DNA from: Sphingomonas sp. LC-1
GTDB lineage: Bacteria; Pseudomonadota; Alphaproteobacteria; Sphingomonadales; Sphingomonadaceae
Assembly (NCBI RefSeq): GCF_025371035.1
Contig: NZ_JANZXB010000002.1
Coordinates: 186,001 to 250,000 of the forward strand
DNA length: 64,000 nt
Reading direction: 5' to 3'
Below are positions 12,383-63,280 of the stretch, one piece after another (positions within the stretch are counted from its first letter, which is position 1; every line of letters starts with the position of its first letter). The position numbers and the translations under genes were made by a program. The notes below the pieces were generated by a model. The model did no database searches, had not been told where the DNA came from, and saw nothing but the letters and a program-made list of their open reading frames with translations.

Positions 12383-12976
12383 CTATCGGCCTTCATCGCC
12401 CCTCATGCAAGCGATCAGCCGCTGCACCGCCGCCTTCGTTTCGGCCAGCGGAATGTCGGTCGCGATGACGTGATCGGCGCGCGCACGCTTTTCCGCATCG
12501 GGCATTTGACGCCCCAGAATCGCGGCGAACTTGGCTTTGGTCATACCGGGTCTTGCCAACACCCTTGCCTCCTGCACGGCCCGTTCTGCCGATACAACCA
12601 ACGTCTTATCCACAGCCTTATCACCACCGGTTTCGAACAGCAGCGGCACGTCCACCACCACCAGGGGCGAGGCGGCATGGCGCGCCAAAAAGGCCGCCCT
12701 CTCCGTCTGAACTGCCGGATGGACGATCGCCTCCAACCGTCGCATCGCGGAATCATCACCCAGCACGGCACGACCGAGCGCGGCGCGATTCACACCCCCC
12801 GAATCGGTCGTACCGGGAAAAGCCGTCTCGATCGCCGCGACCAGCCGCCCATCCGGTCCTTGCAGTTCATGGACACAGGCATCGGCATCGAACACCGGCA
12901 CCCCCTCGTCACGAAACATCTGCGCGACGGTGGATTTGCCCATCCCGATCGAACCGGTGAGGCCAAGGACGATCAT
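12383..12976 (-). CDS. coaE: Dephospho-CoA kinase
   Basis: A 197-aa P-loop kinase that phosphorylates the ribose 3' hydroxyl of dephospho-CoA, the last step of coenzyme A synthesis. The Walker A motif is GSIGMGKST (residues 8-16), followed by FDADACVHEL and DVPLLFETGG, both typical of CoaE. The start codon overlaps the aroE stop in an ATGA. A perfect DnaA box TTATCCACA (12606-12614) lies within the coding region. Confidence 0.96.
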   Translation of the reverse strand: MIVLGLTGSIGMGKSTVAQMFRDEGVPVFDADACVHELQGPDGRLVAAIETAFPGTTDSGGVNRAALGRAVLGDDSAMRRLEAIVHPAVQTERAAFLARHAASPLVVVDVPLLFETGGDKAVDKTLVVSAERAVQEARVLARPGMTKAKFAAILGRQMPDAEKRARADHVIATDIPLAETKAAVQRLIACMRGDEGR

Positions 12977-13785
12977 GCCAGCAGGCGACGGCGCAATTCG
13001 TCGTCCCGGTCGCGCGGCGGCTCCGCCCCGAAGAACAACCGGAACGCCACCGCCGCCTGGCCGATCAGCATCTCCAGCCCGTCGATCCCGACCAGACCCC
13101 TACCCCGCGCCGCCGCCAGCAGCCCGGTTTCGAGCGGCGCATAAACGATGTCATAGACCACCGCCTCTGCGGGCAAGGCCGACAGGTCGAGGGCGAGCGG
13201 CGGCTGGCCCGTCATCCCCAGGCTGGTCGCATTGACCAGCAGCGCCGATGGCGGAACCGCTTCCCCGATCGGCAGCGCCTGCCCCTCGAGCCCAAAGGAC
13301 GACAGCAAATCCGCTCCCTTCGCGACATCACGGTTGAACAGGGTCACCGGGCCGACCGCCATATCCGACAACGCGAACAGGACGGCGCGGGCCGCCCCCC
13401 CTGCCCCGATCACCGTCACCGGCTTGGCCGCGAGATCGAGTCCGGCCAGCGGCGCCGCGAATCCGGACGCGTCGGTGTTGGTGCCGGTCAGCGCACCATC
13501 CTCCGCCCGGATGACCGTGTTGATCGCGCCGATCGATGTGCGAACATCCTCGCGATCCTCGACATGCGCCAGCGCCGCGACCTTGTGCGGCACGGTGATG
13601 TTGCAGCCGCGCCAGTCGGGATCTGCGGCCCTCGTCGCGAAATAGCCGGGCAGTGCGTCGGGCGTGACGTGGGTGGCGCGATACTCCGCGTCGATCCCCA
13701 GCGCCTCCAGCCAGAAGCTGTGGATAAGCGGCGATTTGGTGTGGCCGATCGGATCGCCGATCACCTCCGCATAGGGCCTGGCCAT
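12973..13785 (-). CDS. aroE: Shikimate dehydrogenase (NADP+)
   Basis: A 270-aa enzyme that reduces 3-dehydroshikimate to shikimate in aromatic amino acid synthesis. It has the substrate-binding start VIGDPIGHTKSPLIHSFW, the catalytic lysine in NITVPHKVAAL, the NADP-binding GAGGAARAVLFAL and the end segment GLEMLIGQAAVAF. The start at 13785 overlaps the maf stop as TGATG; a start at 13800 is possible. Much longer frames upstream run inside maf and are not coding. A perfect DnaA box (13719-13727) lies near its 5' end. Confidence 0.95.
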   Translation of the reverse strand: MARPYAEVIGDPIGHTKSPLIHSFWLEALGIDAEYRATHVTPDALPGYFATRAADPDWRGCNITVPHKVAALAHVEDREDVRTSIGAINTVIRAEDGALTGTNTDASGFAAPLAGLDLAAKPVTVIGAGGAARAVLFALSDMAVGPVTLFNRDVAKGADLLSSFGLEGQALPIGEAVPPSALLVNATSLGMTGQPPLALDLSALPAEAVVYDIVYAPLETGLLAAARGRGLVGIDGLEMLIGQAAVAFRLFFGAEPPRDRDDELRRRLLA

Positions 13786-14372
13786 CAGGCGGGCATCCAT
13801 CCGCGCTCGCGCAAATAGCCCAGTATGGGAAGCAGCGGCATGCCCAGAATGGTGAAATGGCTCCCCTCGATCCGCGAGAAGAGCTGGACGCCCGGTCCCT
13901 CGATCCGGAAACAGCCGACACAACCCGATATGGCGGGCCATTCCTGATCCAGATAGCGGTTGATAAAGGCCGGGGAGAGGGGACGAACATGGAGCCTGGC
14001 GCGCTCGACCTGCCGCCAGACGGGGCGGCCATGCTCGGCGATGACGGCGGCACTCCACAATTCGTGGCTGCCGCCGCTCATCCGCGCGAGATGCTCGGCC
14101 GCTTCCTCGCGGCTCTCGGGCTTGTCGAGCAGCGTGCCGTCGGCCAGCGCGACGATCGAATCCGACCCCAGCACCGGGACCGGCCCGGCGTTCGCCGACA
14201 CCTTCACCGCCTTCATCTCGGCCAGCGCGTCGGACAGGTCGCGGGGGGACGAACCCGCCATCGCCGCCTTGACCGCCGCTTCGTCGACGCGGGCGGGCAG
14301 GGCTTCATAGGCGACCCCGGCGGCGTCGAGCATCGCCCGGCGCGAGGCGCTTTGCGAGGCGAGGATGATCAT
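13785..14372 (-). CDS. maf: Maf family nucleotide pyrophosphatase
   Basis: A 195-aa Maf/HAM1-like protein. The start IILASQSASRRAMLDAAG is the family P-loop-like motif, followed by VLGSDSIVALADG with the metal-binding aspartate, and by an E-rich end of the active site. Such proteins hydrolyse non-canonical nucleoside triphosphates and have been linked to control of septation. Its start overlaps the ppsR stop by four bases (ATGA) and its stop overlaps the aroE start, so the operon is tightly coupled. Confidence 0.93.
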   Translation of the reverse strand: MIILASQSASRRAMLDAAGVAYEALPARVDEAAVKAAMAGSSPRDLSDALAEMKAVKVSANAGPVPVLGSDSIVALADGTLLDKPESREEAAEHLARMSGGSHELWSAAVIAEHGRPVWRQVERARLHVRPLSPAFINRYLDQEWPAISGCVGCFRIEGPGVQLFSRIEGSHFTILGMPLLPILGYLRERGWMPA

Positions 14373-15187
14373 GCGTCGGTCTTTCTTTGATTTACGAGGG
14401 AGATGATCGCCGCCGCCGTTTCCTCGATCGAACGGCGGGTCACGTCGATCACCGGCCAGTCATTATCGGCGAACATCCGGCGGGCGAAGGTGAGTTCGCG
14501 GTTCACCGCCTCCTGCGCGACATAGTCGGTGTCGGGCGCCTGGTTGAGCGAGAGCAGCCGGTTGCGCCGGATCGCGATCAACCGATCCGCGCTCGTGGTC
14601 AGCCCGACGACCAGCGGATTTCTAAGCGTGAACAGCGACGGGGGCGGGGGGCTTTCGACCACGATCGGGATGTTGGCGGTCTTGAAGCCGCGATTGGCGA
14701 GATAGATGGAGGTCGGCGTCTTGGACGAGCGGCTGACCCCGGCCAACACGATATCGGCTTCCTCCCATTCCTCCCAGGCGATGCCGTCGTCATGCGCGAT
14801 GGTGAACTGGATCGCATCGACCCGCGCGAAATAGGCGGCGTCCAGGACATGCTGGCGGCCGGGCCGCATCTTGGCCTGAACACCCAACAGCCCCGACAAT
14901 GCGGCGTTGACCGGGTCGAGCGGCGCGACGGTGGGCAGGCCCAGCGCATGACACCGGCTTTCCAGGATGCGGCGGGTCGCCGGGTTGACCAGCGTGTAGA
15001 TGACCAGCCCCGGATTCTGCGCGATCTCCTGAAGGATACGCTCCAGATGGCTTTCGGTGCGGACCATCGGCCAGAAGTGCCGGACGGTTTCCACATCGTC
15101 ATATTGCGCCAGCGCCGCCTTGGCGATGTTCTCCAGCGTTTCGCCCGTGGAATCGGACAAAAGGTGGAGGTGGAGCCGCGTCGTCAT
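14369..15187 (-). CDS. ppsR: Pyruvate, water dikinase regulatory protein (DUF299)
   Basis: A 272-aa bifunctional kinase/pyrophosphorylase of the PSRP/DUF299 family, which switches PEP synthase or pyruvate phosphate dikinase off and on using ADP and phosphate. The family starts LHLLSDSTGETL, and the P-loop is GVSRSSKTPTSIYLANRG. The start at 15187 was chosen because upstream sequence is the intergenic origin region and translates into nonsense. It is the first gene left of oriC; its homologue occupies the same place in other alphaproteobacteria. Confidence 0.93.
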   Translation of the reverse strand: MTTRLHLHLLSDSTGETLENIAKAALAQYDDVETVRHFWPMVRTESHLERILQEIAQNPGLVIYTLVNPATRRILESRCHALGLPTVAPLDPVNAALSGLLGVQAKMRPGRQHVLDAAYFARVDAIQFTIAHDDGIAWEEWEEADIVLAGVSRSSKTPTSIYLANRGFKTANIPIVVESPPPPSLFTLRNPLVVGLTTSADRLIAIRRNRLLSLNQAPDTDYVAQEAVNRELTFARRMFADNDWPVIDVTRRSIEETAAAIISLVNQRKTDA

Positions 15188-15490
15188 GACCGGCCTAATG
15201 ACTCTGTGGATAACATGGGAAGAATCGGTAGCGTAACTTCGCCGACCGGCCAAGCGGCGGACCGGCGGTGGATAACGACCGATTCGTCCACAATGAATCT
15301 CACAGGCCCGATTCTTTTCCACAGCCTGTGAGTTACGGGGGTCATGAATCCGAATCCCGTTGAATCGGCGATTCCCCATGAGTCAACGTGTTGGCATATC
15401 GGGGAGAGCCGCATAATCCCGACAACCAACGTGCCAACCACTTCAACAATCCATTCTTAGAATCTTCTTATTTAGAAGAAGGGGGGTCTC
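15188..15490. other. oriC: Probable chromosomal replication origin, oriC
   Basis: This gap between divergent ppsR and hemE holds a perfect DnaA box TGTGGATAA (15205-15213, minus strand), two boxes with one mismatch (GGTGGATAA 15267-15275 and TTTTCCACA 15315-15323) and a weaker one (TCGTCCACA 15284-15292). An AT-rich stretch (15441-15480, 11 G/C of 40) next to hemE is a candidate unwinding element. Eleven GANTC methylation sites lie in 15200-15464, where about one is expected by chance. The hemE side of alphaproteobacterial origins is well known from Caulobacter, and genes on both sides point away from this gap. Confidence 0.85.
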
Positions 15491-16528
15491 CTGACCGACG
15501 TTGCGATTCAAAAACCCCTGCTCGCCGTGCTTTCCGGTGAGCGGCAGGCAACGCCACCGATGTGGCTCATGCGACAGGCCGGGCGCTATCTGCCGGAGTA
15601 TCGCGCATTGCGGGCAGAGAAGGGGGGCTTCCTGGCTTTGGCCACCGATCCGGCGGCGGCGGCCGAGGTGACGGTGCAGCCGATCAGGCGGTTCGGGTTC
15701 GATGGCGCGATCCTGTTCTCCGACATCCTGATGGTCCCATGGGCGCTGGGCCAGGATCTGAGCTTCGGGGTGGGCGAGGGGCCGCGTCTGGCGCCTGCGC
15801 TGGTCGATCATGCGCTGAATGCCCTGGAGCGCGTCCCTGAGCGGCTCGACCCGGTCTATGCCACCGTGGCAGGGGTGAAGGCGCAATTGCCGTCCCAGAC
15901 CAGCTTCCTGGGCTTTGCGGGCTCTCCCTGGACGGTCGCGACCTATATGGTGGCGGGGCAGGGGTCCAAGGACCAGGGCGAGACGCGGCGCTTCGCCTAT
16001 GCCGATCCGGCCGGGTTCGGGGCGATCATCCAGGCCATCGTGGACATGACGGTCGACTATCTGGCGGGGCAGGTCGCCAACGGGGTCGAGGCGGTGCAGC
16101 TGTTCGACAGTTGGGCGGGCTCCTTGTCCCCGGCGCAGTTCGAGCGCTGGGTGATCGCGCCCAATGCCGCGATCGTCGACGGCTTCCGCAAACGCTGCCC
16201 CGGCGTGCCGGTGATCGGCTTCCCCAAGGGCGCCGGTGGCAAGCTGCCCGCCTATGCCCGCGAGACGGGGGTGGACGCGGTCGGGCTGGACGAGACGGTC
16301 GATCCGGTCTGGGCAGATACCTATATGCCCAAGGGCTTGCCGGTGCAGGGCAATCTCGACCCGCTGGCGCTGATCGCCGGGGGCGAGGCACTGGACGGAG
16401 CGGTCGATCGCATCCTCGCCGCCTTTGGCGACCGGCCGCATATCTTCAATCTGGGGCATGGCATATTGCCCGACACGCCGATCGCGCATGTCGAGCGGCT
16501 GATCGCCCGTGTGAGGAACGACCTATGA
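15491..16528 (+). CDS. hemE: Uroporphyrinogen decarboxylase, probable CTG start
   Basis: UroD removes the four acetate carboxyls of uroporphyrinogen III to give coproporphyrinogen III in heme synthesis. The substrate-binding MRQAGRYLPEYR (R28, R32) and the family motif GFAGSPWTVATYM are present. No ATG, GTG or TTG lies between the in-frame TAG at 15473 and GTG at 15527, but that GTG would remove the first helix and has no ribosome-binding site. CTG at 15491 follows AAGGGGGG by four bases and gives MTDVAIQKPLLAVL, which fits the family start. Predictors that allow only ATG/GTG/TTG will place the start at 15527. The stop overlaps hemJ. Confidence 0.95.
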   Translation: MTDVAIQKPLLAVLSGERQATPPMWLMRQAGRYLPEYRALRAEKGGFLALATDPAAAAEVTVQPIRRFGFDGAILFSDILMVPWALGQDLSFGVGEGPRLAPALVDHALNALERVPERLDPVYATVAGVKAQLPSQTSFLGFAGSPWTVATYMVAGQGSKDQGETRRFAYADPAGFGAIIQAIVDMTVDYLAGQVANGVEAVQLFDSWAGSLSPAQFERWVIAPNAAIVDGFRKRCPGVPVIGFPKGAGGKLPAYARETGVDAVGLDETVDPVWADTYMPKGLPVQGNLDPLALIAGGEALDGAVDRILAAFGDRPHIFNLGHGILPDTPIAHVERLIARVRNDL

Positions 16529-16986
16529 TCGGACTATTGGGGGCCGCCTATGAATGGGTGAAGGCGGCGCATATCATCTTCGTCATCTTCTGGATGGCGG
16601 GGCTGTTCATGATGCCGCGCTATCTGGTCTATCATCAGGAGGCTCTGGTCGCGGGTGACGCGACGGACGCCGCGCGCTGGGTCGAGCGCGAGGGCAAGCT
16701 GCGTTCGATCATCCTGACGCCTGCGATGATCGCGGTCTGGGTGCTGGGGCTGCTGCTGGCGGTATCGCTGGGGCTGTTCTCGGGCGTGCCCGGACTGGGC
16801 TGGCTCCATGCCAAGCTGTTCTTCGTGCTGCTGCTCAGCGGCTATCATGGCTGGATGGTCGGCTATGCGAAGAAGCTGGCGTGCGGGGAGACGAAGCTGA
16901 CCGGCAAGCAATTGCGCATGATCAACGAAGTGCCCGCGCTGGCGGCGACGATCATCGTCGTGCTGGTGGTCATCAAGCCGTTCTGA
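16525..16986 (+). CDS. hemJ: Protoporphyrinogen oxidase HemJ
   Basis: A 153-aa membrane protein of the HemJ (UPF0093) family that oxidises protoporphyrinogen IX to protoporphyrin IX. It has about four hydrophobic segments, a conserved histidine in VKAAHIIFVIFWMAGLF (H15), and the tail KQLRMINEVPALAATIIV shared by the family. The ATG overlaps the hemE TGA by four bases, so the two heme genes are coupled. hemE-hemJ-rho is a common alphaproteobacterial order near the origin. Confidence 0.94.
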   Translation: MIGLLGAAYEWVKAAHIIFVIFWMAGLFMMPRYLVYHQEALVAGDATDAARWVEREGKLRSIILTPAMIAVWVLGLLLAVSLGLFSGVPGLGWLHAKLFFVLLLSGYHGWMVGYAKKLACGETKLTGKQLRMINEVPALAATIIVVLVVIKPF

Positions 16987-16995
16987 ACAGGAGCC

Positions 16996-17024
16996 GGAGA
17001 CGCGAGCGAAGCGCCCGCGTCTCC
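16996..17024 (+). terminator. Hairpin downstream of hemJ
   Basis: GGAGACGCG (16996-17004) pairs perfectly with CGCGTCTCC (17016-17024), ten bases after the hemJ stop. No T-tract follows, so it may stabilise the mRNA end or need Rho to terminate. Confidence 0.5.
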
Positions 17025-17032
17025 ATTCCCCA

Positions 17033-17061
17033 TTGACTTGGGGGTCTTCGAATCCTAACTC
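17033..17061 (+). promoter_or_regulatory. Possible rho promoter
   Basis: TTGACT (17033-17038) and TAACTC (17056-17061) are separated by 17 bases, about 105 bases before rho. The leader would be long enough for the known attenuation of rho by Rho, but nothing in the leader proves this. Confidence 0.4.
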
Positions 17062-17166
17062 GGCACCTGTACGGCGCGGTCCTCGCGTCGGGTACGCTTC
17101 CTTATCGACAGCCTCGTTTCGCCGCGATCATCGCCGACCGACGCCCTCCGACCATCCGGACCGATC

Positions 17167-18423
<1,257 letters not shown>

Positions 18424-18464
18424 GAGCGGGGCGGGGGCACCAACCCCGCCGACGCTACGGTTTG

Positions 18465-18514
18465 ATGGGTTCGCCGGCGGGAAATAGGCCCGCTTGCGAA
18501 CCCATTTTCGTTTT
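18465..18514 (+). terminator. Rho-independent terminator of rho
   Basis: ATGGGTTCGC (18465-18474) pairs perfectly with GCGAACCCAT (18496-18505); an inner GCGGG/CCCGC pair extends the hairpin, and TTTTCGTTTT follows. The rho gene itself therefore ends without needing Rho. Confidence 0.85.
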
Positions 18515-18644
18515 GGGGCGTTAGCAGGCCCGATCCCACCCCCTTTCGGGATCGTGCCGGTCCAAGCACGGCACGGCCGCGTCGTTGCTTACCACGCGAC
18601 GCGGCCAAACGGGGGAGCGCCCCAGTCCCACCGTTTCTCCCCCT

Positions 18645-18727
18645 CCGTTCAGCCTGAGCGGGGTCGAAGGCCAAGGGTGTCCGTTGGCGAAACGCGGACC
18701 ATGCGCTTCGACGTCGCTCAGCGGGAA
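18645..18727. repeat. Paired inverted copies of the dispersed repeat (locus B)
   Basis: A good copy (18645-18675, with TTCAGCCTGAGCGGGGTCGA) is followed by a partial inverted copy (18704-18727, GCTTCGACGTCGCTCAGCGGG). The pair lies between the convergent genes rho and bamE, 28 bases from the bamE stop. Confidence 0.7.
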
Positions 18728-18755
18728 TGGAGGGAAGTGAGAGGCGCTTCAGCCC

Positions 18756-19250
18756 TTATGGCCGGGTGCGCCCGCCGCCCATGCCACCGCCCTGGCCAGC
18801 ACCCGCGCCCGGTGCACCCACCGCGCCGATATTGCCGAACAGATCCTGGAAGAAGCCGCGCTCGCGACCCAGGGTCGGCGTGGTCTTGCCATAGGGCGAG
18901 ATGTCCGCGACCTGATCCAGCCCGGCGCGACGGATCGTCGTCACATTGCCCGCCTTGTCGAAGCTGATCTGCAGCGTGATCTGCGACGAGGGATGGGGCA
19001 GGGTATAGCCCAGATTGCGGCTGTCGCGCGCGACATAATACCAGTCGGTCCCGCCGAACTGGCTGCTGATCGTCGGAGTGCCCAGCGTCTGGAGCACCGA
19101 CTGGCGGTTGTCGACGCCCGGCTGGATCGAGTTGACGAGATCGACATCGACCACATAACCCTGATGCGACCGCAGCGGCGTACAGGCGGACGCGGCCAGG
19201 GCCATCGCCAGGCCGAGCCCGAGGGCGGCGCGGGTGGAAGAAACGCTCAT
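18756..19250 (-). CDS. bamE: Outer membrane protein assembly factor BamE (SmpA/OmlA)
   Basis: A 164-aa lipoprotein with a lipobox ALAASAC (the cysteine becomes lipidated) and the SmpA/OmlA domain (VDLVNSIQPGVDNRQSVLQ...LGTPTISSQFGGTDWYYV). BamE supports the BAM complex that inserts beta-barrel proteins. Three ATGs stand in a row; GGAG six bases before the third decides for 19250. The C-terminal tail is an unusual glycine-rich, disordered stretch (GAPGAGAGQGGGMGGG). The gene is divergent from the bc1 chaperone gene. Confidence 0.92.
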   Translation of the reverse strand: MSVSSTRAALGLGLAMALAASACTPLRSHQGYVVDVDLVNSIQPGVDNRQSVLQTLGTPTISSQFGGTDWYYVARDSRNLGYTLPHPSSQITLQISFDKAGNVTTIRRAGLDQVADISPYGKTTPTLGRERGFFQDLFGNIGAVGAPGAGAGQGGGMGGGRTRP

Positions 19251-19396
19251 CATCATCTCCGGGCCGGATCATCGGCCGCACAGGCAGGTATACAGGCGAC
19301 CGATCCGCTCGACCGTCGCCCCCTCGATATGCGAAGGGAAAGGCGCATACAAGCAATTCGCGCGCGGCTGATCGTGCGGCAAGGAGGGAGGGGCGC

Positions 19397-19930
19397 ATGG
19401 TTCTGGGAACGCTCAAGCGGGGAATCGCGCGCTATTTCGGACGCGACGGCGATCAAGCCCTGCCGCTGTACAATGCGGTGGTGCTGCGGGCACGCGAACC
19501 ACATTGGTATCTGGCCGGTGCGGTGCCCGACACGGTCGATGGCCGGTTCGACATGATCGCGGCCGTCCTGTCGATGGTGCTGATCCGTCTGGAGGCCATG
19601 CCCGAAGGCGCAGGCCCGGCGGCGCGGTTGACCGAGCGCTTCGTCACCGACATGGACGGACAGCTTCGCGAACTGGGCATCGGCGACATCGTGGTCGGCA
19701 AGCATATCGGCCGGATGATGGCGATGCTTGGCGGCCGCCTGACCGCCTATCGCGCGGGGCTGGCGGGGGAGGGGGAGGCGTTCGACGCCGCCCTGCTCCG
19801 CAATCTGTACCGCGGAGAGGTCCCCGCCGATCCGAACGCCATCGCCCATGTTCGCGAGGCGCTTCGTACCCTACATAGCGGGTTGGCGGACGTATCGCTC
19901 GCCCGACTGCTGCTTGGAGAATTACCGTGA
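19397..19930 (+). CDS. Ubiquinol-cytochrome c chaperone family protein
   Basis: A 177-aa helical protein of the Cbp3/UQCC1-like family (Ubiq_cyt_C_chap), which in mitochondria helps cytochrome b enter the bc1 complex. Typical segments are YNAVVLRAREPHWYL, FDMIAAVLSMVLIRLE and VTDMDGQLRELGIGDIVVGK. AGGGAGGGG precedes the ATG. It is followed by DUF177 with a four-base overlap and is divergent from bamE, a grouping seen in many alphaproteobacteria. The role in bacterial respiratory complex assembly is inferred from the eukaryotic family. Confidence 0.9.
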   Translation: MVLGTLKRGIARYFGRDGDQALPLYNAVVLRAREPHWYLAGAVPDTVDGRFDMIAAVLSMVLIRLEAMPEGAGPAARLTERFVTDMDGQLRELGIGDIVVGKHIGRMMAMLGGRLTAYRAGLAGEGEAFDAALLRNLYRGEVPADPNAIAHVREALRTLHSGLADVSLARLLLGELP

Positions 19931-20454
19931 CCCCCGAATGGAGCCGCCCCGAAAAGATCGATACGATCGGCGAGCGGGAAAAGCCGATCGCGATCGAGGC
20001 CAATGACGATGAACGCCGTGCGCTGGCCGGACGGTTCGGGCTGCTGGCGATCGACGCACTGAACGCCGAACTGGTGGTGCGACCCGACGCGATGGGCATC
20101 CTCGTCACCGGCACGGTGCGGGGTTCGGTGGTTCAGCCCTGCTCGGTCACGGGCGATCCCGTTCCCGCGACGGTCGACGAGCCGGTAGCGCTTCGCTTCG
20201 TAGAGCCAACCGCCCATGGGGCGGAGGAGGAAATCGAACTGTCCGAAGACTCGCTCGACACGATCGAGATCGAAGGCGGCACGATCGACCTGGGCGAGGC
20301 AGCGGCGGAAACCATGGCACTGTCGCTGGACCCGTTCCCGCGCAGCCCCAATGCCGCGACGGCGCTCAAGGAAGCAGGGGTCATCAGCGAGGACGAGGCC
20401 GGACCCTTCGGCGCGTTGGCCGGGCTGAAGGCAAAGCTCGAGGGCAAGTCCTGA
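19927..20454 (+). CDS. DUF177 (YceD) family protein
   Basis: A 175-aa protein of the YceD/DUF177 family, which elsewhere is often next to rpmF and has been linked to 23S rRNA accumulation. The family features VQPCSVTGDPVPATVDEPV and the acidic middle EEEIELSEDSLDTIEIEGG followed by DLGEAAAETMALSLDPFPR are clear. The GTG start overlaps the stop of the bc1 chaperone gene (GTGA). No rpmF follows here. The acidic, cysteine-poor sequence suggests a soluble cytoplasmic protein. Confidence 0.9.
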   Translation: MTPEWSRPEKIDTIGEREKPIAIEANDDERRALAGRFGLLAIDALNAELVVRPDAMGILVTGTVRGSVVQPCSVTGDPVPATVDEPVALRFVEPTAHGAEEEIELSEDSLDTIEIEGGTIDLGEAAAETMALSLDPFPRSPNAATALKEAGVISEDEAGPFGALAGLKAKLEGKS

Positions 20455-20497
20455 TTCAATTGAAGCTGTGGAGCGGCAGGGGCGAGGGGACGCCCCG

Positions 20498-21031
20498 TTA
20501 AGGCGTATCCGGCCCCAGCGTCGGGTCCAGATCGCGCGGCCGGATGAACGCCACCAGCGTTGCGCTATGCGGCTGAACCTCGGCCCAGCGGGTGATCGGC
20601 AAGGTCATCTGCGCGACGGTGGCGGTGGGATATTTGTCCTCCACCCGCTCGCGCAATTCGCTGTCCAGCGCCAGTTCGAGGACCAGATCCTCCAGCCCCG
20701 GATTATGGCCGACCAGCAGGACGTGATCCGCCTCGTCCGGCAGGGCATGCACCCGGTCGAGCAGGCTGGGGGCGGAGGCGAGGTACATCGCTTTGTCCCA
20801 CACCGGCGCCAGCGTCCGGCCATAGCCGCCCCACACTTCGTCCAGCGTCTCCATCACGCGAATGGCGGGGGAGGCGACGATATGGTCGAATTGCAGATCG
20901 AGCGATTTCAGATGCCGCCCGATCATCGCGGCGGCGCGGCGGCCCTTGGCGTTGAGGGGCCGATCGAAATCGCGGGAGACCGGATCGTCCCAGCTCGATT
21001 TGGCATGGCGAAGCAGCGTCAGCGTCTTCAT
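20498..21031 (-). CDS. SixA-type phosphohistidine phosphatase
   Basis: A 177-aa histidine phosphatase superfamily member. The catalytic RHA motif is LLRHAKSSW (H8-H9 region), followed by SPAIRVMETLDEVW and the second histidine in LLVGHNPGLEDL. E. coli SixA removes phosphate from histidine residues of phosphotransfer domains, including the nitrogen PTS; with ptsN elsewhere in the window a link is possible but not shown. The start overlaps the stop of the DinG-like helicase by four bases, so they are co-expressed. Confidence 0.88.
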   Translation of the reverse strand: MKTLTLLRHAKSSWDDPVSRDFDRPLNAKGRRAAAMIGRHLKSLDLQFDHIVASPAIRVMETLDEVWGGYGRTLAPVWDKAMYLASAPSLLDRVHALPDEADHVLLVGHNPGLEDLVLELALDSELRERVEDKYPTATVAQMTLPITRWAEVQPHSATLVAFIRPRDLDPTLGPDTP

Positions 21032-23763
21032 CGGACCGGATACTCCGTCGCGGCGGCGGGCAGCGTTTCGCTGTTTCCATGCCCGATCCCGGCGTCGGAG
21101 GAAAGCCGCGCCGCGACCCGCGCGACCGCTTCGTCCAGCGTCACCCGGGTGACCGCGACCCCCGGCGGAAAGGCGTCGCGCAACCGCGACGGCATGGCGG
21201 CGGACAGAAGCACGAACGCACCGCGATCGTCCGCACGCCGGATCAACCGTCCGAACGCCTGCGCCATGCGCGCGCGCACGATCCGGTCGTCATAGGCGCT
21301 GCCGCCCCCGGCCAGTTTGCGCGCGGCATGAAGGACGGTGGGCTTGGGCCATGGCACCCCCTCCATCACCACCAGCCGCAGCGAGGAGCCCGGCACGTCC
21401 ACGCCGTCGCGAAGCGCATCGGTACCCAGCAGCGAGGCGGACGGATCGTCGCGGAAAATATCGACCAGCGTGCCTGTATCGATCGGATCGACATGCTGAG
21501 CATGAAGGGCCAGCCCCTCGCGCGCCAGCCGGTCGGCGATGCGGCCATGGACACCGCGCAGGCGCCGGATGGCGGTGAACAGCCCCAGCGTCCCGCCCTT
21601 CGCCGCCTCGATCAGTCGTGCATAGGCGTTGGCGAGTTGCGGAATGTCGCCACGTTTCACATCGGTCACGATCAGGACCTCGGCACGATCGGGATAATCG
21701 AACGGGCTTTCCGCGACGAAATGAGCAGGGCTTCGCGCCAGATGCGGTGCTCCGCTTCGCGCCTCGGCCACATCCCAATCCCCTCCGGCGCGCAAGGTCG
21801 CGGAGGTGACGACCGCGCCATGCGCGGGTTTCAGCACGATTTCGGCAAAAGGCCGGGTGGGGTCCAGCCAATGGCGGTGGAGCCCGATATCATATTCGCG
21901 CCCCTCCACCCGATCGACCGCCAGCCAGTCGACGAAATCGGGATCGACCGGCCCGCCGATCCGCGCGAGCAGCGATAGCCAGGCGGCCACCGTCTCCGCG
22001 CGCCACGCGATCGAGGCGATCGCACCCTCCACTCGCGCGCGCGCCGGTCCGTCGAGCCAGTCCGGTGCCTCATGCAGCACCGCCTCCAGCCGCTGCCCCA
22101 AAGTCACGAGCGGGCGCAGCAGCGCGTCGAGCGCATGGGCGGCAGGTCCAGCAGCGTCGATCAGTTCGGGCGAGGGGTCGGCGAGTTCGGTCTCCAGACC
22201 ATAGCCCGCATCGCCCGACTGTTCGGCACGAGCGAAGGCCAGGCCTCGCACCGCCGCCAGCAGCGCCTCGATCGGGCCGAAGGGCTGCCCCTCTGCCAGT
22301 CGGCCGAGCCAGCCTTCGCTCGCCAGCGCATGGGCGGCCTGCACCGCATCGCCGATCGCGCGGTTGCCGCCCTCATCATAGCTGGCGACATCGGATAGCC
22401 GTGCGGCCAGACCCCGGCGGCGTCCGCGCGATCCGGCTTCGGGGCCGAGAATCCAGCGCCGCAACTCGATCGTCTCCGCCCCGGTCAGCGCGGTGGCGAA
22501 CATCGAATCCGCCGCATCGAACAGGTGATGTCCCTCGTCGAAGACATAGCGGGTCGGCCGCGTCTGAGTCTCGCGCCCACGCGCGGCGTTGACCATGACC
22601 AGCGCATGGTTGGCGATGACGATATCCGCTTGCACCGAGGCGCGGGCAGCCCGCTCGATGAAGCATTTCCGATAATGCGGACACCCGGCATAGACGCACT
22701 CGCCGCGCCGGTCGGTCAGCGCGGCCGACCCGTTGCGACGGAACAGGGTGGTCAGCCAGCCGGGCAGGTCGCCGCCCACCATATCGCCATCGCTGGTATA
22801 GGCGGCCCAGCGCGCGACCAATTGCGCCAGCACCGCCGCGCGTCCGGCAAAGCCGCCTTGCAGCGCATCCTCCAGATTGAGCAGGCAGAGATAATTTTCC
22901 CGCCCCTTGCGGGTGACGACACGTTCCTTGCGCAGCACGGCGTCGGGGAAGATGCGCGCGGTCTCGCCGCTCAACTGACGTTGCAGCGCTTTGGTATAGG
23001 TCGAGATCCACACCGCGCCGCCCGCCCGCTCGGCCCAGAGGCTGGCGGGGGCAAGATAGCCCAGCGTCTTGCCGATGCCCGTGCCCGCCTCGGCCAACAC
23101 CATATTGGGGGTGTCACGCACCGCGCGCGGCGCGAAGGCGGCGGTGACGGCGGCGGCATAGGCGCGCTGACCGGGGCGTTCTTCCGCGCCCTCGCCGGTC
23201 AGACGGCGCAAGCGGACTTCCGCGTCTTGCGGGGGCAGATCGATGGTGCGCGGGGCGGGGCGTGGGGCGTCCTCCTCCCATTCGGGCAGGGCGCTGAACA
23301 GCCATCGCTCGTTGCGTTCGGGGCGAGTGAGGCGCGGGCCGATCAGCGGCGCCCATGGCCAGCGCAGCCGGGCGAGACTCTGCGCGGCGGTCCATGCCCC
23401 CTCGCGCTCGGGCCAGGCACCATCGGGGGTGGCGAGCAACGTCTCGGTCGCCTGGAGCAGAAAGGCGGCCACCTCCGCGTCACTTCGCGGCGGTTCCAGG
23501 CCACAGGCACGGGCGAGGCCATGCGGGGTCGGCACCGCGAACTGGGCGGGTCGCAAAAAGGCGAAGAGTTCGAGCAGGTCGAGGCCCGACAGCTCGGCAT
23601 AGCCCAGGCGCTGCCCGATCAGCGGCGCGTTGAGCAGGATCACCGGCGTCTCGGCGGCGAGTCCGATCGCTTCGCCACGCGAGACGGCGCGCGTCTGTCC
23701 CTGGGTGGATATCCACACGCCGCTATGGCTGGCGTGCAGGGCGGGGTAGGGAGGCGCGGTCAC
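21028..23763 (-). CDS. DinG/XPD-type ATP-dependent DNA helicase with Fe-S motif
   Basis: A superfamily 2 helicase of about 911 aa. Motif I is AEAGTGIGKT, the DEAH box is VFDEGHHLF, and motif VI is MAQAFGRLIRR. Cysteines in NYLCLLN and ECVYAGCPHYRKC match the four-cysteine Fe-S cluster of XPD/DinG helicases. Such enzymes unwind 5'-3' and act on R-loops, G-quadruplexes and damaged forks. GTG at 23763 (VTAPPYPALH) is the likelier start; TTG at 23799 is also open and neither has a clear ribosome-binding site. The gene leads into sixA and is divergent from lysK. Confidence 0.9.
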   Translation of the reverse strand: MTAPPYPALHASHSGVWISTQGQTRAVSRGEAIGLAAETPVILLNAPLIGQRLGYAELSGLDLLELFAFLRPAQFAVPTPHGLARACGLEPPRSDAEVAAFLLQATETLLATPDGAWPEREGAWTAAQSLARLRWPWAPLIGPRLTRPERNERWLFSALPEWEEDAPRPAPRTIDLPPQDAEVRLRRLTGEGAEERPGQRAYAAAVTAAFAPRAVRDTPNMVLAEAGTGIGKTLGYLAPASLWAERAGGAVWISTYTKALQRQLSGETARIFPDAVLRKERVVTRKGRENYLCLLNLEDALQGGFAGRAAVLAQLVARWAAYTSDGDMVGGDLPGWLTTLFRRNGSAALTDRRGECVYAGCPHYRKCFIERAARASVQADIVIANHALVMVNAARGRETQTRPTRYVFDEGHHLFDAADSMFATALTGAETIELRRWILGPEAGSRGRRRGLAARLSDVASYDEGGNRAIGDAVQAAHALASEGWLGRLAEGQPFGPIEALLAAVRGLAFARAEQSGDAGYGLETELADPSPELIDAAGPAAHALDALLRPLVTLGQRLEAVLHEAPDWLDGPARARVEGAIASIAWRAETVAAWLSLLARIGGPVDPDFVDWLAVDRVEGREYDIGLHRHWLDPTRPFAEIVLKPAHGAVVTSATLRAGGDWDVAEARSGAPHLARSPAHFVAESPFDYPDRAEVLIVTDVKRGDIPQLANAYARLIEAAKGGTLGLFTAIRRLRGVHGRIADRLAREGLALHAQHVDPIDTGTLVDIFRDDPSASLLGTDALRDGVDVPGSSLRLVVMEGVPWPKPTVLHAARKLAGGGSAYDDRIVRARMAQAFGRLIRRADDRGAFVLLSAAMPSRLRDAFPPGVAVTRVTLDEAVARVAARLSSDAGIGHGNSETLPAAATEYPVR

Positions 23764-23842
23764 AAGCGAGGATATCGGCGACCCGGAACAGGATGGCAAC
23801 GGGGCGCACCGCTTTTAATCGCCTGCAAAATCCCTCTTGCTC

Positions 23843-23858
23843 TGTTCCACGTGGAACA
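23843..23858. promoter_or_regulatory. parS: parS site 1 (ParB binding)
   Basis: TGTTCCACGTGGAACA is a perfect 16-bp palindrome and a close match to the bacterial parS consensus TGTTTCACGTGAAACA. It lies in the dinG-like/lysK intergenic region, 6.6 kb from parA. Confidence 0.9.
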
Positions 23859-23866
23859 TGAGCTTC

Positions 23867-23887
23867 TGTGGATAAGTCTGTGAATAA
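23867..23887 (-). promoter_or_regulatory. Two DnaA boxes next to parS site 1
   Basis: TGTGGATAA (23867-23875) is a perfect DnaA box on the minus strand, and TGTGAATAA (23879-23887) matches the degenerate consensus TTATNCACA. They start 8 bases from parS site 1 and lie about 93 bases before the lysK start. Confidence 0.65.
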
Positions 23888-23979
23888 TGTGATGAGAAGC
23901 GGTGGATCGAAGCGGGATATTGGGTGGATCGTGTAAAATGCATTTGTGCATCGCGCCCTGCCTTGCCAGAGGCAAATCC

Positions 23980-25554
23980 ATGACAGACGAACTTCGCTCC
24001 ACCGCTCTCGAGTCCAAGGCCTGGCCCTATGAGGAGGCCCGCAAGCTCCTCAAACGCTATCCCGACGGCAAGCCTGGTGGTGAGCCGATCCTGTTCGAAA
24101 CCGGATATGGCCCATCGGGCCTGCCGCATATCGGTACCTTTAACGAAGTGCTGCGCACCACCATGGTCCGCAACGCCTTTCATGCGCTGTCGGACCAGAA
24201 GACCCGGCTGATCGCCTTTTCGGACGATATGGACGGATTGCGCAAGGTGCCCGACAACGTCCCGAACCAGGAGATGCTGCGCGAGCATCTCGGCAAGCCG
24301 CTGACCCAGGTGCCGGATCCGTTCGAGAAGTTCGATAGCTTTGCCGCGCACAACAACGCACTGCTGCGCCAGTTTCTCGATCGCTTCGGCTTCGACTATG
24401 AATTCGCCTCCTCCACCGAATATTATCATTCGGGCCGGTTCGACGACGCGCTGCGGCTGGTGCTGAAACACTATCAGGGCATTCAGGATGTGATGCTCCC
24501 GACGCTGCGCGCCGAGCGCCGCGCGACCTATTCGCCGGTCCTGCCGATCAGCCCCAAATCGGGTATCGTGCTTCAGGTGCCGGTCGAGGTGATCGACGCC
24601 GAGGCGGGCTTGATCGCCTTCGACGACGAGGGCGAGCGGATCGTCCAGTCGGCGCTGGGCGGCCTGTCCAAGCTGCAATGGAAGGTCGACTGGGCGATGC
24701 GCTGGGTCGCGTTGGGCGTGGATTACGAGATGGCGGGCAAGGACCTGATCGACTCGGTCACCCAGTCGTCGAAGATCGCCCGAGTACTTGGCGGTCGTCC
24801 CCCCGAGGGCTTTAACTATGAGATGTTCCTCGACGAACATGGCGAGAAGATCTCCAAGTCCAAGGGCAATGGCCTGAGCCTCGACCAGTGGCTGACCTAT
24901 GGCCCCGAAGAGAGCCTGGCCTTCTTCGCCTATCGCGAGCCCAAAAAGGCCAAGCAGCTGCACATGGGCGTCATTCCGCGCGCGGTGGACGAATATTGGC
25001 AGTTTCGGGTCAACTATCCCAACCAGTCGCTCAAGGAGCAATTGGGCAATCCGGTGCATCACATCCATGACGGCAAGCTGCCGCAGGGAGAGTTGCCGGT
25101 GACGTTCGGCCTGCTGCTCAACCTGGTCGGGGTGATGGGCGAGGCGACCAAGGAGCAGGTCTGGGGCTATCTTGCCAATTATGTGCCAGAAGCCTCGGCG
25201 GAGAAATATCCCGAGCTGGACCGGCTGATCGACCATGCGCTGGCCTATGCGCGTGACTTCGTCGCCCCGACGCTCCAGCGCCGCGCGCCCGAGCCGCATG
25301 AGGCCGAGGCACTGCGCCAGCTCGACGCGCAATTGGCGGCGCTCCCGGCAGGGGCGAGTGCCGAGGATATCCAGAACATCGTCTATGAGATCGGCAAAAC
25401 CGACGCCTTCCCGTCGCTGCGCGACTGGTTCAAGGCGCTGTACGAAACGTTGCTGGGGTCGGCGCAAGGGCCGCGCATGGGTAGCTTCATCGCGCTTTAC
25501 GGTGTGGATAACAGCCGCAAACTGATCGCCGAGGCATTGGCCAAGGCCGCGTAA
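23980..25554 (+). CDS. lysK: Lysyl-tRNA synthetase, class I
   Basis: A 524-aa class I LysRS, the archaeal-type enzyme that replaces class II LysS in many alphaproteobacteria. The HIGH-like motif is GLPHIGTF (HIGT at 50-53) and the KMSKS loop is EKISKSKGN (from residue 289). It attaches lysine to tRNA-Lys. The start at 23980 follows AGAGGC; the longer frame upstream crosses the regulatory region with a DnaA box and is not used. A perfect DnaA box lies near its 3' end (25503-25511). Confidence 0.96.
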   Translation: MTDELRSTALESKAWPYEEARKLLKRYPDGKPGGEPILFETGYGPSGLPHIGTFNEVLRTTMVRNAFHALSDQKTRLIAFSDDMDGLRKVPDNVPNQEMLREHLGKPLTQVPDPFEKFDSFAAHNNALLRQFLDRFGFDYEFASSTEYYHSGRFDDALRLVLKHYQGIQDVMLPTLRAERRATYSPVLPISPKSGIVLQVPVEVIDAEAGLIAFDDEGERIVQSALGGLSKLQWKVDWAMRWVALGVDYEMAGKDLIDSVTQSSKIARVLGGRPPEGFNYEMFLDEHGEKISKSKGNGLSLDQWLTYGPEESLAFFAYREPKKAKQLHMGVIPRAVDEYWQFRVNYPNQSLKEQLGNPVHHIHDGKLPQGELPVTFGLLLNLVGVMGEATKEQVWGYLANYVPEASAEKYPELDRLIDHALAYARDFVAPTLQRRAPEPHEAEALRQLDAQLAALPAGASAEDIQNIVYEIGKTDAFPSLRDWFKALYETLLGSAQGPRMGSFIALYGVDNSRKLIAEALAKAA

Positions 25555-27971: not shown

Positions 27972-27987
27972 TGTTCCACGTGGAACG
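27972..27987. promoter_or_regulatory. parS: parS site 2 (ParB binding)
   Basis: TGTTCCACGTGGAACG differs from the palindrome by one end base and lies two bases after the mnmE stop, in the mnmE-mnmG gap. Confidence 0.85.
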
Positions 27988-29874: not shown

Positions 29875-30485
29875 CCGAAGAGCAGGCGCGCGACTGGGTC
29901 GTCCAGCGTTTCGGCGAAGAGGCGGCCGAGCGTATCGACCACTTCCTCAATCTGGTGATCGTCGAGAACGACCAGCAGAACCTGATCGCGCCATCGACCA
30001 TTGGCAGCATCTGGTCGCGGCACGCGCTCGACTCGGTGCAGTTGATTCCGCTGGCAGAGCGCTCGGACGGCCAGTGGGTAGACATCGGCACCGGCGGGGG
30101 CTTTCCCGGCATGGTGGTGGCGCTGGCCTGGCCCGGTCGTGTCGCACTGGTCGAACCCCGCAAGCGTCGCGCCGACTTCCTGCGCGAATGTGCTGAAACT
30201 CTGGGCGTGGCGGATCGCGTAACCGTCCATGCGTCCAAGATCGAGGCGGTGCAGGTCAAGGCCGACATTATTTCTGCTCGTGCCGTGGCAACAGTCGAAA
30301 ATCTTTTGCGCGCGGCCGCTCACTGCGGCAAACAGGATACGCGGTGGTTGCTACCGCGCGGCCGCCTGGACGAGCGCGAAATCAAGACCCTCAAGCGGCA
30401 ATGGCGCTTCGTGTTTCACGTGGAACATAGCATCACATCGGCGGACTCGTCGATCGTGATCCTCGACCGAGTAGGGGCCCGATGA
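29871..30485 (+). CDS. rsmG: 16S rRNA (guanine527-N7)-methyltransferase
   Basis: A 204-aa SAM-dependent enzyme (GidB) that makes m7G527 in 16S rRNA; its loss gives low-level streptomycin resistance. The SAM-binding motif is [16 protein letters not shown], preceded by [16 protein letters not shown], and the family motif [13 protein letters not shown] follows. It overlaps both mnmG (ATGA) and parA (ATGA). parS site 3 (30412-30427) is embedded in the coding sequence, encoding part of [10 protein letters not shown]. Confidence 0.96.
30412..30427. promoter_or_regulatory. parS: parS site 3 (ParB binding), inside rsmG
   Basis: TGTTTCACGTGGAACA matches the parS consensus with one change and lies 55 bases before parA. 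Confidence 0.9.
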
Positions 30486-31273
30486 TCTGCGTTGCCATCG
30501 CGAACCAAAAGGGTGGGGTGGGCAAGACCACCAGCGCCATCAATCTTGCCACCGCACTGTCTGCGACGGGGCTGAACGTCCTGTTGATCGATCTCGATCC
30601 TCAGGGAAATGCCTCGACCGGTCTGGGTATCTCCAACAGCCAGCGCATGTTCTCCAGCTATCATGTCTTGCTGGGCGAAGCGCGGATCGACGATGCGGTC
30701 GTGCATACGCAGGTTCCGAGGCTGGACGTGGTGCCGGCCACGGTCGATCTGTCCGGCGCGGAATTGGAGCTTGTCGATTTCGAAAATCGGACCCATCGGC
30801 TCGATCAGGCGATGCGGCGGTCGCAGGGGAATTGGGACATTGTCCTGATCGATTGTCCGCCCTCGCTGGGGCTGCTGACGATCAACGCGATGGTCGCGTC
30901 CGATTCGCTTTTCGTGCCGCTGCAATGCGAGTTTTTCGCGCTGGAGGGGCTTTCGCAACTTTTGACCACGGTCGAGCGGATCAGGGCCCGGTTCAATCCG
31001 GGGCTGGCAATCCTTGGCGTGGCTTTGACGATGTATGACCGGCGCAACCGGTTGACCGACCAGGTGTCGGCGGATGTGCGCGCCGTTTTGGGAGGGGTCG
31101 TGTTCGATACGGTAATACCGCGCAATGTCCGGCTGTCGGAGGCGCCCAGCCATGGCTTGCCTGCGCTGATCTATGATTATCGTTGCGTGGGGAGCCAGGC
31201 CTATATTGCGCTGGCCCGTGAGTTGATCGCGCGGCTGCCGCTAGGCACGCAGCCGGGGGCAGCAGCGGCATGA
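30482..31273 (+). CDS. parA: Chromosome partitioning ATPase ParA
   Basis: A 263-aa deviant Walker A ATPase that forms a DNA-bound gradient and pulls the ParB-parS complex apart after replication. The Walker A motif is KGGVGKTTSAINLAT (residues 10-24), with DLDPQGNASTGLG and the Walker B segment IVLIDCPPSLGLLT. ATG at 30482 overlaps the rsmG stop. Its own stop overlaps the parB start, so the pair is translated together. Confidence 0.98.
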   Translation: MICVAIANQKGGVGKTTSAINLATALSATGLNVLLIDLDPQGNASTGLGISNSQRMFSSYHVLLGEARIDDAVVHTQVPRLDVVPATVDLSGAELELVDFENRTHRLDQAMRRSQGNWDIVLIDCPPSLGLLTINAMVASDSLFVPLQCEFFALEGLSQLLTTVERIRARFNPGLAILGVALTMYDRRNRLTDQVSADVRAVLGGVVFDTVIPRNVRLSEAPSHGLPALIYDYRCVGSQAYIALARELIARLPLGTQPGAAAA

Positions 31274-32190
31274 GCGCCGAACCTGCGGCCAAACGCCCTC
31301 GGCCCGGTCTGGGTCGTGGATTGGGTGCCCTACTCGGCGATATGGCGCGCGAGGCACCGATTCGCCCCGGCGATCAGCCGACGCCGGGCGGCGTGCGGAT
31401 GCTGCCGGTCGGTTCGCTGTCGCCGCACCCCGATCAGCCGCGCCGTCATTTTGAGGAAGCGGCACTGGACGAACTTGCCGCGTCGATCGCGGCACGCGGG
31501 CTGATCCAGCCCATCGTCGTCCGTCCGCACGGCAAGGATTATCAGATCGTCGCGGGTGAGCGGCGTTGGCGGGCGGCGCAGCGGGCCCGGTTGCACGAGG
31601 TGCCGGTCGTCGTCCGGGATTTCGATGATGCCCAGACGCTCGAAGTCGCGCTGATCGAGAATATCCAACGGCAGGACCTCAACGCGATCGAAGAGGCACA
31701 GGCCTATCAGCGGCTGGCGGGCGAGTTCGGCCATACGCAAGAGGCGCTGGCCAAGATCGTCCACAAGTCGCGCAGCCATGTCGCCAATTTGCTGCGTCTG
31801 CTCGAACTGCCGGACACGGTGCAGAGCCAGGTCGTCAGCGGGGCTCTGTCGATGGGCCATGCCCGCGCGTTGCTGGGCGCGAACGAGGTCGAATCGCTGG
31901 CCGATCAGGTCATCGCAAGGGGCCTGAGCGTCCGCGAAACCGAGAAGCTGACCCGTGAGGCCAAGGGCGGCGGGCGTAAGGCGGCTTCGGGCGACAAGGG
32001 TTCAACCAAGCCGTCCGGGCAGGATGCCGCCGACGCCGATATTGCGGCGTTAGAAGGGCAGCTAGCCGATCTACTCGGCCTGTCGGTACGGATCGCGCAT
32101 GGCGAAAAGGGCGGTACACTGACCCTGAGCTATTCGACGCTCGATCAGCTCGACATGGTGTGCCAGCGACTGACCGGTGAGGGTATTTGA
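31270..32190 (+). CDS. parB: Chromosome partitioning protein ParB
   Basis: A 306-aa CTP-dependent DNA clamp that loads at parS. The N-terminal part has the ParA-contact region RPRPGLGRGLGALLGD and the CTP-binding motif VAGERRWRAAQ, then ENIQRQDLNAIEEA and the helix-turn-helix KSRSHVANLLRLLELP. A C-terminal dimerisation domain follows a Gly/Lys-rich linker. Three matching parS sites lie within 8 kb upstream. A terminator follows. Confidence 0.97.
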   Translation: MSAEPAAKRPRPGLGRGLGALLGDMAREAPIRPGDQPTPGGVRMLPVGSLSPHPDQPRRHFEEAALDELAASIAARGLIQPIVVRPHGKDYQIVAGERRWRAAQRARLHEVPVVVRDFDDAQTLEVALIENIQRQDLNAIEEAQAYQRLAGEFGHTQEALAKIVHKSRSHVANLLRLLELPDTVQSQVVSGALSMGHARALLGANEVESLADQVIARGLSVRETEKLTREAKGGGRKAASGDKGSTKPSGQDAADADIAALEGQLADLLGLSVRIAHGEKGGTLTLSYSTLDQLDMVCQRLTGEGI

Positions 32191-63102: not shown

Positions 63103-63188
63103 ATAACCAAGCTTTTCGCACTTGCAACATAACGTGTCGCAGCGCAAAAGGAACGGGCCTTTCAGGCATCCTCTCCTAAAAACTTTTC

Positions 63189-63219
63189 GGGCTGGTCGTT
63201 TCGATCGGCCCTTTTTTTT
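63189..63219 (+). terminator. Orphan Rho-independent terminator
   Basis: A 9-bp stem (GGGCTGGTC 63189-63197 with GATCGGCCC 63203-63211, two wobble pairs) is followed by eight T residues. It is a strong plus-strand terminator, but no plus-strand gene lies between it and lysR, which suggests an unannotated small RNA or an attenuated leader. Confidence 0.8.
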
Positions 63220-63280
63220 GTCTCGGTTCGGCGGTCCGGTCTTTCACCGGCAGGAACCCGCCCCCACGTCCCGCGCTTTC

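Follow-up and report, generated by a model that had tools for sequence, protein, structure and literature searches.

The gap between ppsR and hemE as the likely chromosomal origin of a Sphingomonas strain, with a dense cluster of GANTC sites of putative role

Is the 303-bp gap between the divergent genes ppsR and hemE the replication origin of this Sphingomonas chromosome, and what could account for the 11 GANTC sites that it holds? We addressed these questions in a 64-kb stretch of DNA (hereafter the window, C12:186001-250000) from a genome of 4,146,635 bases in 48 contigs. An origin at this place is expected, because this position has previously been assigned to the origin in Caulobacter, Rickettsia and Sphingomonadaceae; for GANTC clustering at Sphingomonadales origins we found no earlier report among the matches listed in the main texts of the open-licence literature. 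The cluster matters because the role of the methylase CcrM at alphaproteobacterial origins is disputed, and a lineage with as many as 11 GANTC in 303 bp is well suited to testing that role. Our case for the origin is built from sequence anatomy, conservation and position (skew, parS and DnaA boxes), from which we infer DnaA binding, duplex opening and replication.

The gap was compared across 111 sequences, namely the window, genus relatives (L002-L031) and the 80 best HemE loci (L032-L111). Both genes were present, divergent and 298-454 bp apart in 106 of these, while in L042, L067, L080, L096 and L110 one of the two genes had no match. With the strain's own duplicate (L002) removed, the Sphingomonas-type set comprised 105 loci with 102 distinct gaps. 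By record title these are mostly Sphingomonadales, some without a named order and two apparently mislabelled: L039 and L066 are titled Microvirga sp. SRT01 and Bacillus sp. 2B10 yet carry Sphingomonas-like hemE and ppsR loci, and these titles look wrong. The closest HemE loci are from Sphingomonas ('Candidatus Sphingomonas excrementigallinarum', 93% identity; S. zeae, 92%). At the class level, a ppsR match was found in 99 of 143 genomes, and the 44 genomes with none count against our reading. Forty of the 99, mainly the better matches and including one from the window's own family (G208), served as class-level loci; ppsR and hemE were divergent neighbours in 38 of them. The features of the gap and its flanks are as follows.

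14369-15187, minus strand: ppsR (DUF299/COG1806), kinase-pyrophosphorylase gene (Pfam Kinase-PPPase, 1.6e-91; NCBIfam PRK05339, above cut-off)
15188-15490, no strand: the 303-bp gap between divergent ppsR and hemE, candidate oriC
15205-15213, minus strand: DnaA box 1, perfect TTATCCACA (CTGTGGANAA in 67 of the 102 distinct gaps and, at class level, in 11 of 38)
15267-15275, minus strand: DnaA box 2, TTATCCACC, one mismatch (consensus scan)
15284-15292, plus strand: DnaA box 3, TCGTCCACA, two mismatches (consensus scan)
15315-15323, plus strand: DnaA box 4, TTTTCCACA, one mismatch (CCACAGNCTGTG in 52 of 102 distinct gaps)
15327-15335, minus strand: DnaA box 5, degenerate, the inverted partner of box 4 (TGTGGATAA in some of 19 aligned gaps)
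15389-15416, plus strand: probable hemE promoter, TGTTGGCA, 14 nt, GCATAA
15440-15481, no strand: AT-rich stretch, likely duplex-unwinding element
15491-16528, plus strand: hemE (TIGR01464, 373 bits, above cut-off)

The gap is intergenic, with ppsR (COG1806) and hemE pointing away from it, which is the arrangement of the hemE/COG1806 type of alphaproteobacterial oriC. Leftward, ppsR is followed on the minus strand by maf, aroE, coaE and a dnaQ-like RNase_T exonuclease gene; rightward, hemE is followed by a UPF0093 (hemJ-like) gene and rho. The GC content of the gap is 0.528, compared to 0.668 over 410 kb of the contig. As expected of an origin, it is thus richer in AT than both this contig stretch and the window, and it has a candidate unwinding stretch with 11 G/C per 40 bases within 15440-15481, one of two such places in the 64 kb. 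By nearest-neighbour energy (-44.2 versus a window mean of -62.7) this stretch is the least stable of any 40 bp in the window. The preliminary description, which had proposed an origin here, relied on the divergent flanking genes, the AT-rich stretch beside hemE and four DnaA boxes, one perfect, two with one mismatch and a weaker one. Our scans recovered all of these, the weaker box having two mismatches; box 5 and the 11 GANTC sites were absent from that account. Elsewhere in the window, positions 63150-63226 match the Rfam suhB/mmgR small RNA (53.7 bits, above the gathering score).

In an alignment of 19 selected gaps, the elements occur in the order box 1, TAGCGTAAC...GCCAAGC, box 2, box 3 and the inverted box pair TCCACAG-CTGTGGA, followed by CGANTC, GTCAA..TGTTGGCA, GCATAAG, TTAGANTCTT in the AT-rich stretch and the ribosome-binding site. 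The inverted box pair was present in 52 of the 102 Sphingomonas-type gaps versus 0 of the 38 class-level gaps, and TGTTGGCA in 57 of 102 versus 0 of 38. All 46 matches to the two-part pattern of TGTTGGCA and GCATAA share the identical 14-nt spacing. The upstream edge of this promoter candidate, TCAA-N4-TTG, may alternatively be an IHF-like site: the core TCAA-N4-TTR of the IHF consensus (top strand) occurs in 59 of 102 gaps versus 0 of 102 coding controls, and the full WATCAA-N4-TTR in 0 of 102. A scan of 15100-15600 for sigma-70 promoters and terminators gave no matches. The block TAGCGTAAC...GCCAAGC (15229-15255) is conserved in many gaps, its part AGCG[CGT]AAC being found in 40 of 102 gaps and 1 of 38 class-level gaps, and it may represent a ppsR promoter or another binding site.

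The start codon of hemE is probably the CTG at 15491. The earliest ATG, GTG or TTG after the upstream in-frame stop lies at 15527, which is already inside the conserved protein, and the CTG (15491-15493) has a strong Shine-Dalgarno sequence ahead of it. Of the 102 gaps, 13 have no ATG, GTG or TTG in the final 39 nt ahead of the hemE anchor. A reading of TAGAAGAAG, next to hemE, as a DnaA-trio was rejected, because the same bases are likely the hemE Shine-Dalgarno sequence and no DnaA box adjoins them.

Support for the origin comes from three lines of evidence that are independent of the gap's own sequence, namely skew, parS and the genome-wide distribution of DnaA boxes. According to the preliminary description, a GC-skew switch elsewhere would speak against an origin here. 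In C12:1-410000 of the 454-kb contig, which is one contig of 48 whose mutual order cannot be set, the cumulative GC-skew minimum fell at C12:200282 (window 14282), only 0.9 kb from the gap. When each 20-kb block was removed in turn, the minimum remained no more than 2 kb from the gap in 19 of 21 cases and moved away in two, and none of 2000 shuffles of 10-kb blocks gave a minimum as deep as observed. For keto bases (G+T), the cumulative minimum over this 410 kb is at C12:164870, 36 kb from the gap, and is a point against it.

Three relatives with single-contig genomes, each sampled in 20 stretches of 20 kb, gave mixed skew results. G010 is supportive, with its best step at 2.20 Mb and ppsR at 2.209 Mb. 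The signal of G021 is offset and weak: its best step at 2.60 Mb sits on a plateau (90% of the maximum) that starts at 1.81 Mb, and ppsR lies at 1.772 Mb. G033 is uninformative, with a weak best step at 0.23 Mb and ppsR at 4.005 Mb. Local skew minima within 400 kb were 49 kb (G010) and 38 kb (G021) from ppsR.

The second line concerns the partitioning system, whose features in the window are listed here.

23843-23887, no strand: parS (23843-23858), then DnaA boxes at 23867 (perfect) and 23879 (one mismatch)
27972-27987, no strand: parS with one mismatch (consensus scan)
30412-30427, no strand: parS (consensus scan)
30482-31273, plus strand: parA (Pfam AAA_31/CbiA)
31270-32190, plus strand: parB (Pfam ParB_N, HTH_ParB and ParB_C; TIGR00180 above cut-off)

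A parABS system had been reported at 24-32 kb, and this agrees with parA, parB and the parS-like sites at 23843, 27972 and 30412. In a scan with the parS consensus, allowing at most one mismatch, these were the 3 sites in the whole 4.15-Mb assembly, at 8.7, 12.8 and 15.2 kb from the ppsR start. Hence, the gap has the linked parS and parAB that an oriC is expected to have. Exact parS was present in 53 of 61 genomes searched. Among the matches listed, which comprise 75 sites of 38 genomes, 67 sites lie on the ppsR contig, and 66 of these are 3.6-38.7 kb away on the hemE side. The 67th (in G073) is at 3.135 Mb of a ~3.1-Mb single-contig record that starts with ppsR. Eight sites remain, located either on a contig other than that of ppsR or in a genome in which ppsR had no match.

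Beyond the first parS of the window, a perfect DnaA box comes after 8 bp and a one-mismatch box 3 bp further on, with a class-I lysyl-tRNA synthetase gene just downstream. The arrangement is reminiscent of Caulobacter, whose parS also has DnaA boxes (Mera 2014, according to PMC6399470). No DnaA boxes were found within 150 bp of parS in G010, G021 and G033.

The third line is the clustering of DnaA boxes beyond chance at the gap. The 410 kb of the contig hold 28 boxes with no more than one mismatch; 3 of these lie inside the 303 bp, and the 10-kb bin that holds the gap has 7, with at most 3 in every other bin. The window contains 16 such boxes; shuffling predicts 3.73, and in each of 100 shuffles the count stayed below 16. 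Perfect boxes number 13 genome-wide, and 5 of these lie at 12606-25511 of the window, in 12.9 kb around the gap, where an even spread would give ~0.04 by simple arithmetic. The 102 distinct gaps average 7.5 boxes with at most one mismatch per kb, versus 0.10 per kb in their flanks. Against the origin reading, 43 of the 102 gaps lack a perfect TTATCCACA and 5 lack any one-mismatch box. With the skew minimum, the three parS sites and the box clustering all supporting the earlier proposal, we conclude that the gap is almost certainly the replication origin of this chromosome.

What distinguishes the gap is its set of GANTC sites.

15200-15384, no strand: ten GANTC sites, starting at 15200, 15222, 15281, 15295, 15310, 15346, 15352, 15362, 15370 and 15380
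15460-15464, no strand: eleventh GANTC site, within the AT-rich stretch (in place in 31 of 102 gaps, by alignment)

The mean over the 410 kb is only 0.65 GANTC per 303 bp. GANTC was denser in the gap than in the flanks at all 105 Sphingomonas-type loci (median 12.0 versus 1.8 per kb), and some GANTC was present 20-110 bp ahead of the hemE anchor in 86 of 102 gaps, whereas two 90-bp coding controls scored 7 and 17 of 102. The density of the sites rather than their position is conserved, because 6 of the 11 are kept in at most 10 of the 102 gaps. Counts of 11-12, taken over the stretch up to the HemE anchor (339 bp for the window, slightly longer than the gap), were reached in 6 of the 102 distinct gaps, namely the window, three close relatives (L003, L032 and L033) and two others (L078 and L083), and 63 of the 102 have 3-5 sites. 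Enrichment is thus a general feature, unlike the extreme density. Among the 340-bp windows of 400 kb, the gap was not the one richest in GANTC in either G010 or G021; in G033 it was the richest among the sampled stretches, with 6 sites. At the class level, GANTC was in 2.0-fold excess. Taken together, the cluster is real, a tendency across the sampled Alphaproteobacteria that becomes extreme in the window's lineage, and its role is putative.

The genome encodes one protein matching N6_N4_Mtase, which lies beside rnhB and matches the NCBIfam CcrM model over its full length with 598 bits. This is below the model cut-off of 830, which was reached by 0 of 42 genomes and 0 of 14 controls, Caulobacter vibrioides included. 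This CcrM would be expected to methylate the GANTC sites of the gap. Among the 42 genomes searched for CcrM, three (G219, G121 and G196) had no long match. G219 and G121, of one family, nevertheless have GANTC-rich gaps with 5 and 6 sites, and G196 has 1. Conversely, G127 and G223 possess CcrM and have 0 and 1 GANTC in their AT-rich gaps. Hence, there is no clean link between CcrM presence and GANTC density.

One explanation of the cluster is that it serves transcription, the divergent ppsR and hemE promoters being read by GcrA together with CcrM, as in Caulobacter cell-cycle promoters. The genome has a GcrA homologue, and the fixed-spacing pair that resembles a hemE promoter lies within the cluster. 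Moreover, promoters of this genome do carry GANTC clusters, because the strain's own ccrM promoter holds 6 sites in 261 bp. However, no other 303-bp window in the 410 kb has more than 5 GANTC, though many promoters must be there, and the density is raised in the same gap throughout the class (above the flank in 36 of 38), where this gap is the expected origin. We therefore regard the transcriptional explanation as possible, if doubtful. The 261 bp upstream of ccrM (L152:2299-2559, in G000:C48, between rnhB and ccrM) also have a perfect DnaA box, and five of the six GANTC fall within ~55 bp. Of the 8 perfect boxes outside the window, 7 were scanned for GANTC, the richest 303 bp being that at the ccrM promoter with its 6 sites; the remaining box, at C12:77199, is within the 410 kb already scanned.

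Alternatively, the GANTC excess might be a by-product, either of base composition or of some further conserved binding site in which GANTC happens to occur. The gap is indeed AT-richer than the contig, and the two genomes G219 and G121, which lack a long CcrM match, retain the excess. Yet only 0-2 GANTC were counted in each of 20 low-GC windows taken elsewhere without overlap, and 5000 first-order Markov shuffles of the gap gave a mean of 1.97 sites and a maximum of 8. In the pooled gaps GANTC was 3.74-fold above base composition, the top of 16 motifs of the form XYN-Y'X', the next reaching 1.72. A different binding site fits poorly with the 510 gap GANTC sites, which use all four N bases and show no strong preference in the flanking bases. 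Site 15352, kept in 74 of the 102 aligned gaps, preserves its GA and TC, with A as the N base in 46 gaps and C in 28. That the cluster is such a by-product thus seems quite unlikely. That the gap is a pair of divergent promoters with chance DnaA boxes, the origin being elsewhere, is scarcely credible: two perfect boxes do lie 184 bp apart on contig C24 and dnaA is on C47, but C24, 6.6 kb long, carries genes for DUF2254, TetR and a TonB receptor and never exceeds 2 GANTC per 303 bp, the 14 kb around dnaA hold no box with one mismatch or fewer, and parS, skew and conservation all favour the gap.

With the gap as the origin, initiation would begin with DnaA binding to box 1 and to the inverted pair of boxes 4 and 5, which are the most conserved, with boxes 2 and 3 between them. 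The AT-rich stretch beside hemE would then open, and the duplicated origin region would be pulled apart by ParAB acting on parS 8.7-15.2 kb away. The GANTC sites would be hemimethylated after replication and fully methylated later, which could affect either DnaA assembly or the hemE and ppsR promoters. That the sites are kept for a methylation role of some kind is the interpretation towards which we lean slightly.

Whether such methylation would govern initiation itself is a narrower question. A model paper took full methylation of the Caulobacter origin Cori, at which the number of GANTC is given as 'several' (PMC3973325), to be required for initiation (PMC2217572). According to PMC3973325, however, CcrM is not needed for initiation control in Caulobacter and delta-ccrM cells have a normal DNA content, although over-expression gives extra chromosome copies. 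In Agrobacterium, CcrM is described as affecting ori2 and not visibly ori1 (PMC11514494).

CtrA offers a further comparison. Cori has five TTAA-N7-TTAA CtrA sites (PMC1914354), whereas we found none, also with spacers of 6 or 8, in 410 kb of the contig, the gap included. In the class, gaps that lack a consensus CtrA site are common: an exact site was present in just 3 of the 102 Sphingomonas-type gaps and 3 of the 38 at class level, and allowing one mismatch raised these counts to 10 and 7. Judged by consensus, the gap is not a member of the CtrA-repressed Cori subtype.

Direct control of initiation by CcrM methylation appears rather unlikely, since two genomes without a long CcrM match keep the sites, the Caulobacter result and Agrobacterium ori1 speak against it, and the absence of CtrA sites is not special. 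A specific version would have CcrM methylation of the GANTC sites over the DnaA boxes and the unwinding element gate initiation at an origin that has no consensus CtrA site. This we consider unlikely. Such gating would make the gap a counterpart of a Dam-controlled origin, with a putative reader of hemimethylated GANTC and, possibly, a loop through the DnaA box of the ccrM promoter.

The preliminary description had likened the position beside hemE to that of the Caulobacter origin, and rightly so: an origin between hemE and COG1806 (DUF299, ppsR) is documented for both Caulobacter (Cori) and Rickettsia prowazekii (PMC1914354). The gap shares with these origins the flanking genes, several DnaA boxes and an AT-rich stretch of ~40 bp. 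A linked parS is likewise common to the gap and to Cori, near which Caulobacter parS is located (PMC6399470). In contrast to the Caulobacter type, dnaA lies here on a separate contig from the gap.

Within the same bacterial group, oriC has been predicted beside hemE in Sphingopyxis granuli TFA and other Sphingomonadaceae (PMC4741004) and in Novosphingobium PP1Y (PMC4059872). The Sphingopyxis granuli TFA origin is at the same place, with conserved DnaA boxes and a putative DUE described (PMC4741004). GANTC is mentioned 0 times in the main text of that paper (PMC4741004). A methylome study described GATC clustering at gammaproteobacterial origins and, among motif clusters of orphan methylases, four that are conserved, all at putative origins, GANTC apparently not being one of these four (PMC4752239). 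The present gap likewise has dense orphan-methylase sites at an origin.

In E. coli, the origin oriC is under methylation control by Dam and SeqA. The likeness lies in the dense orphan adenine methylase sites across the DnaA boxes, as expected of the Dam/SeqA type. The methylase and the motif are different, no SeqA match was found in the window's genome by a search whose control matched E. coli only, and sequestration in the gap would be hypothetical. Because SeqA was not found, the gap is not a Dam/SeqA-type origin; at most, it works like one with another reader.
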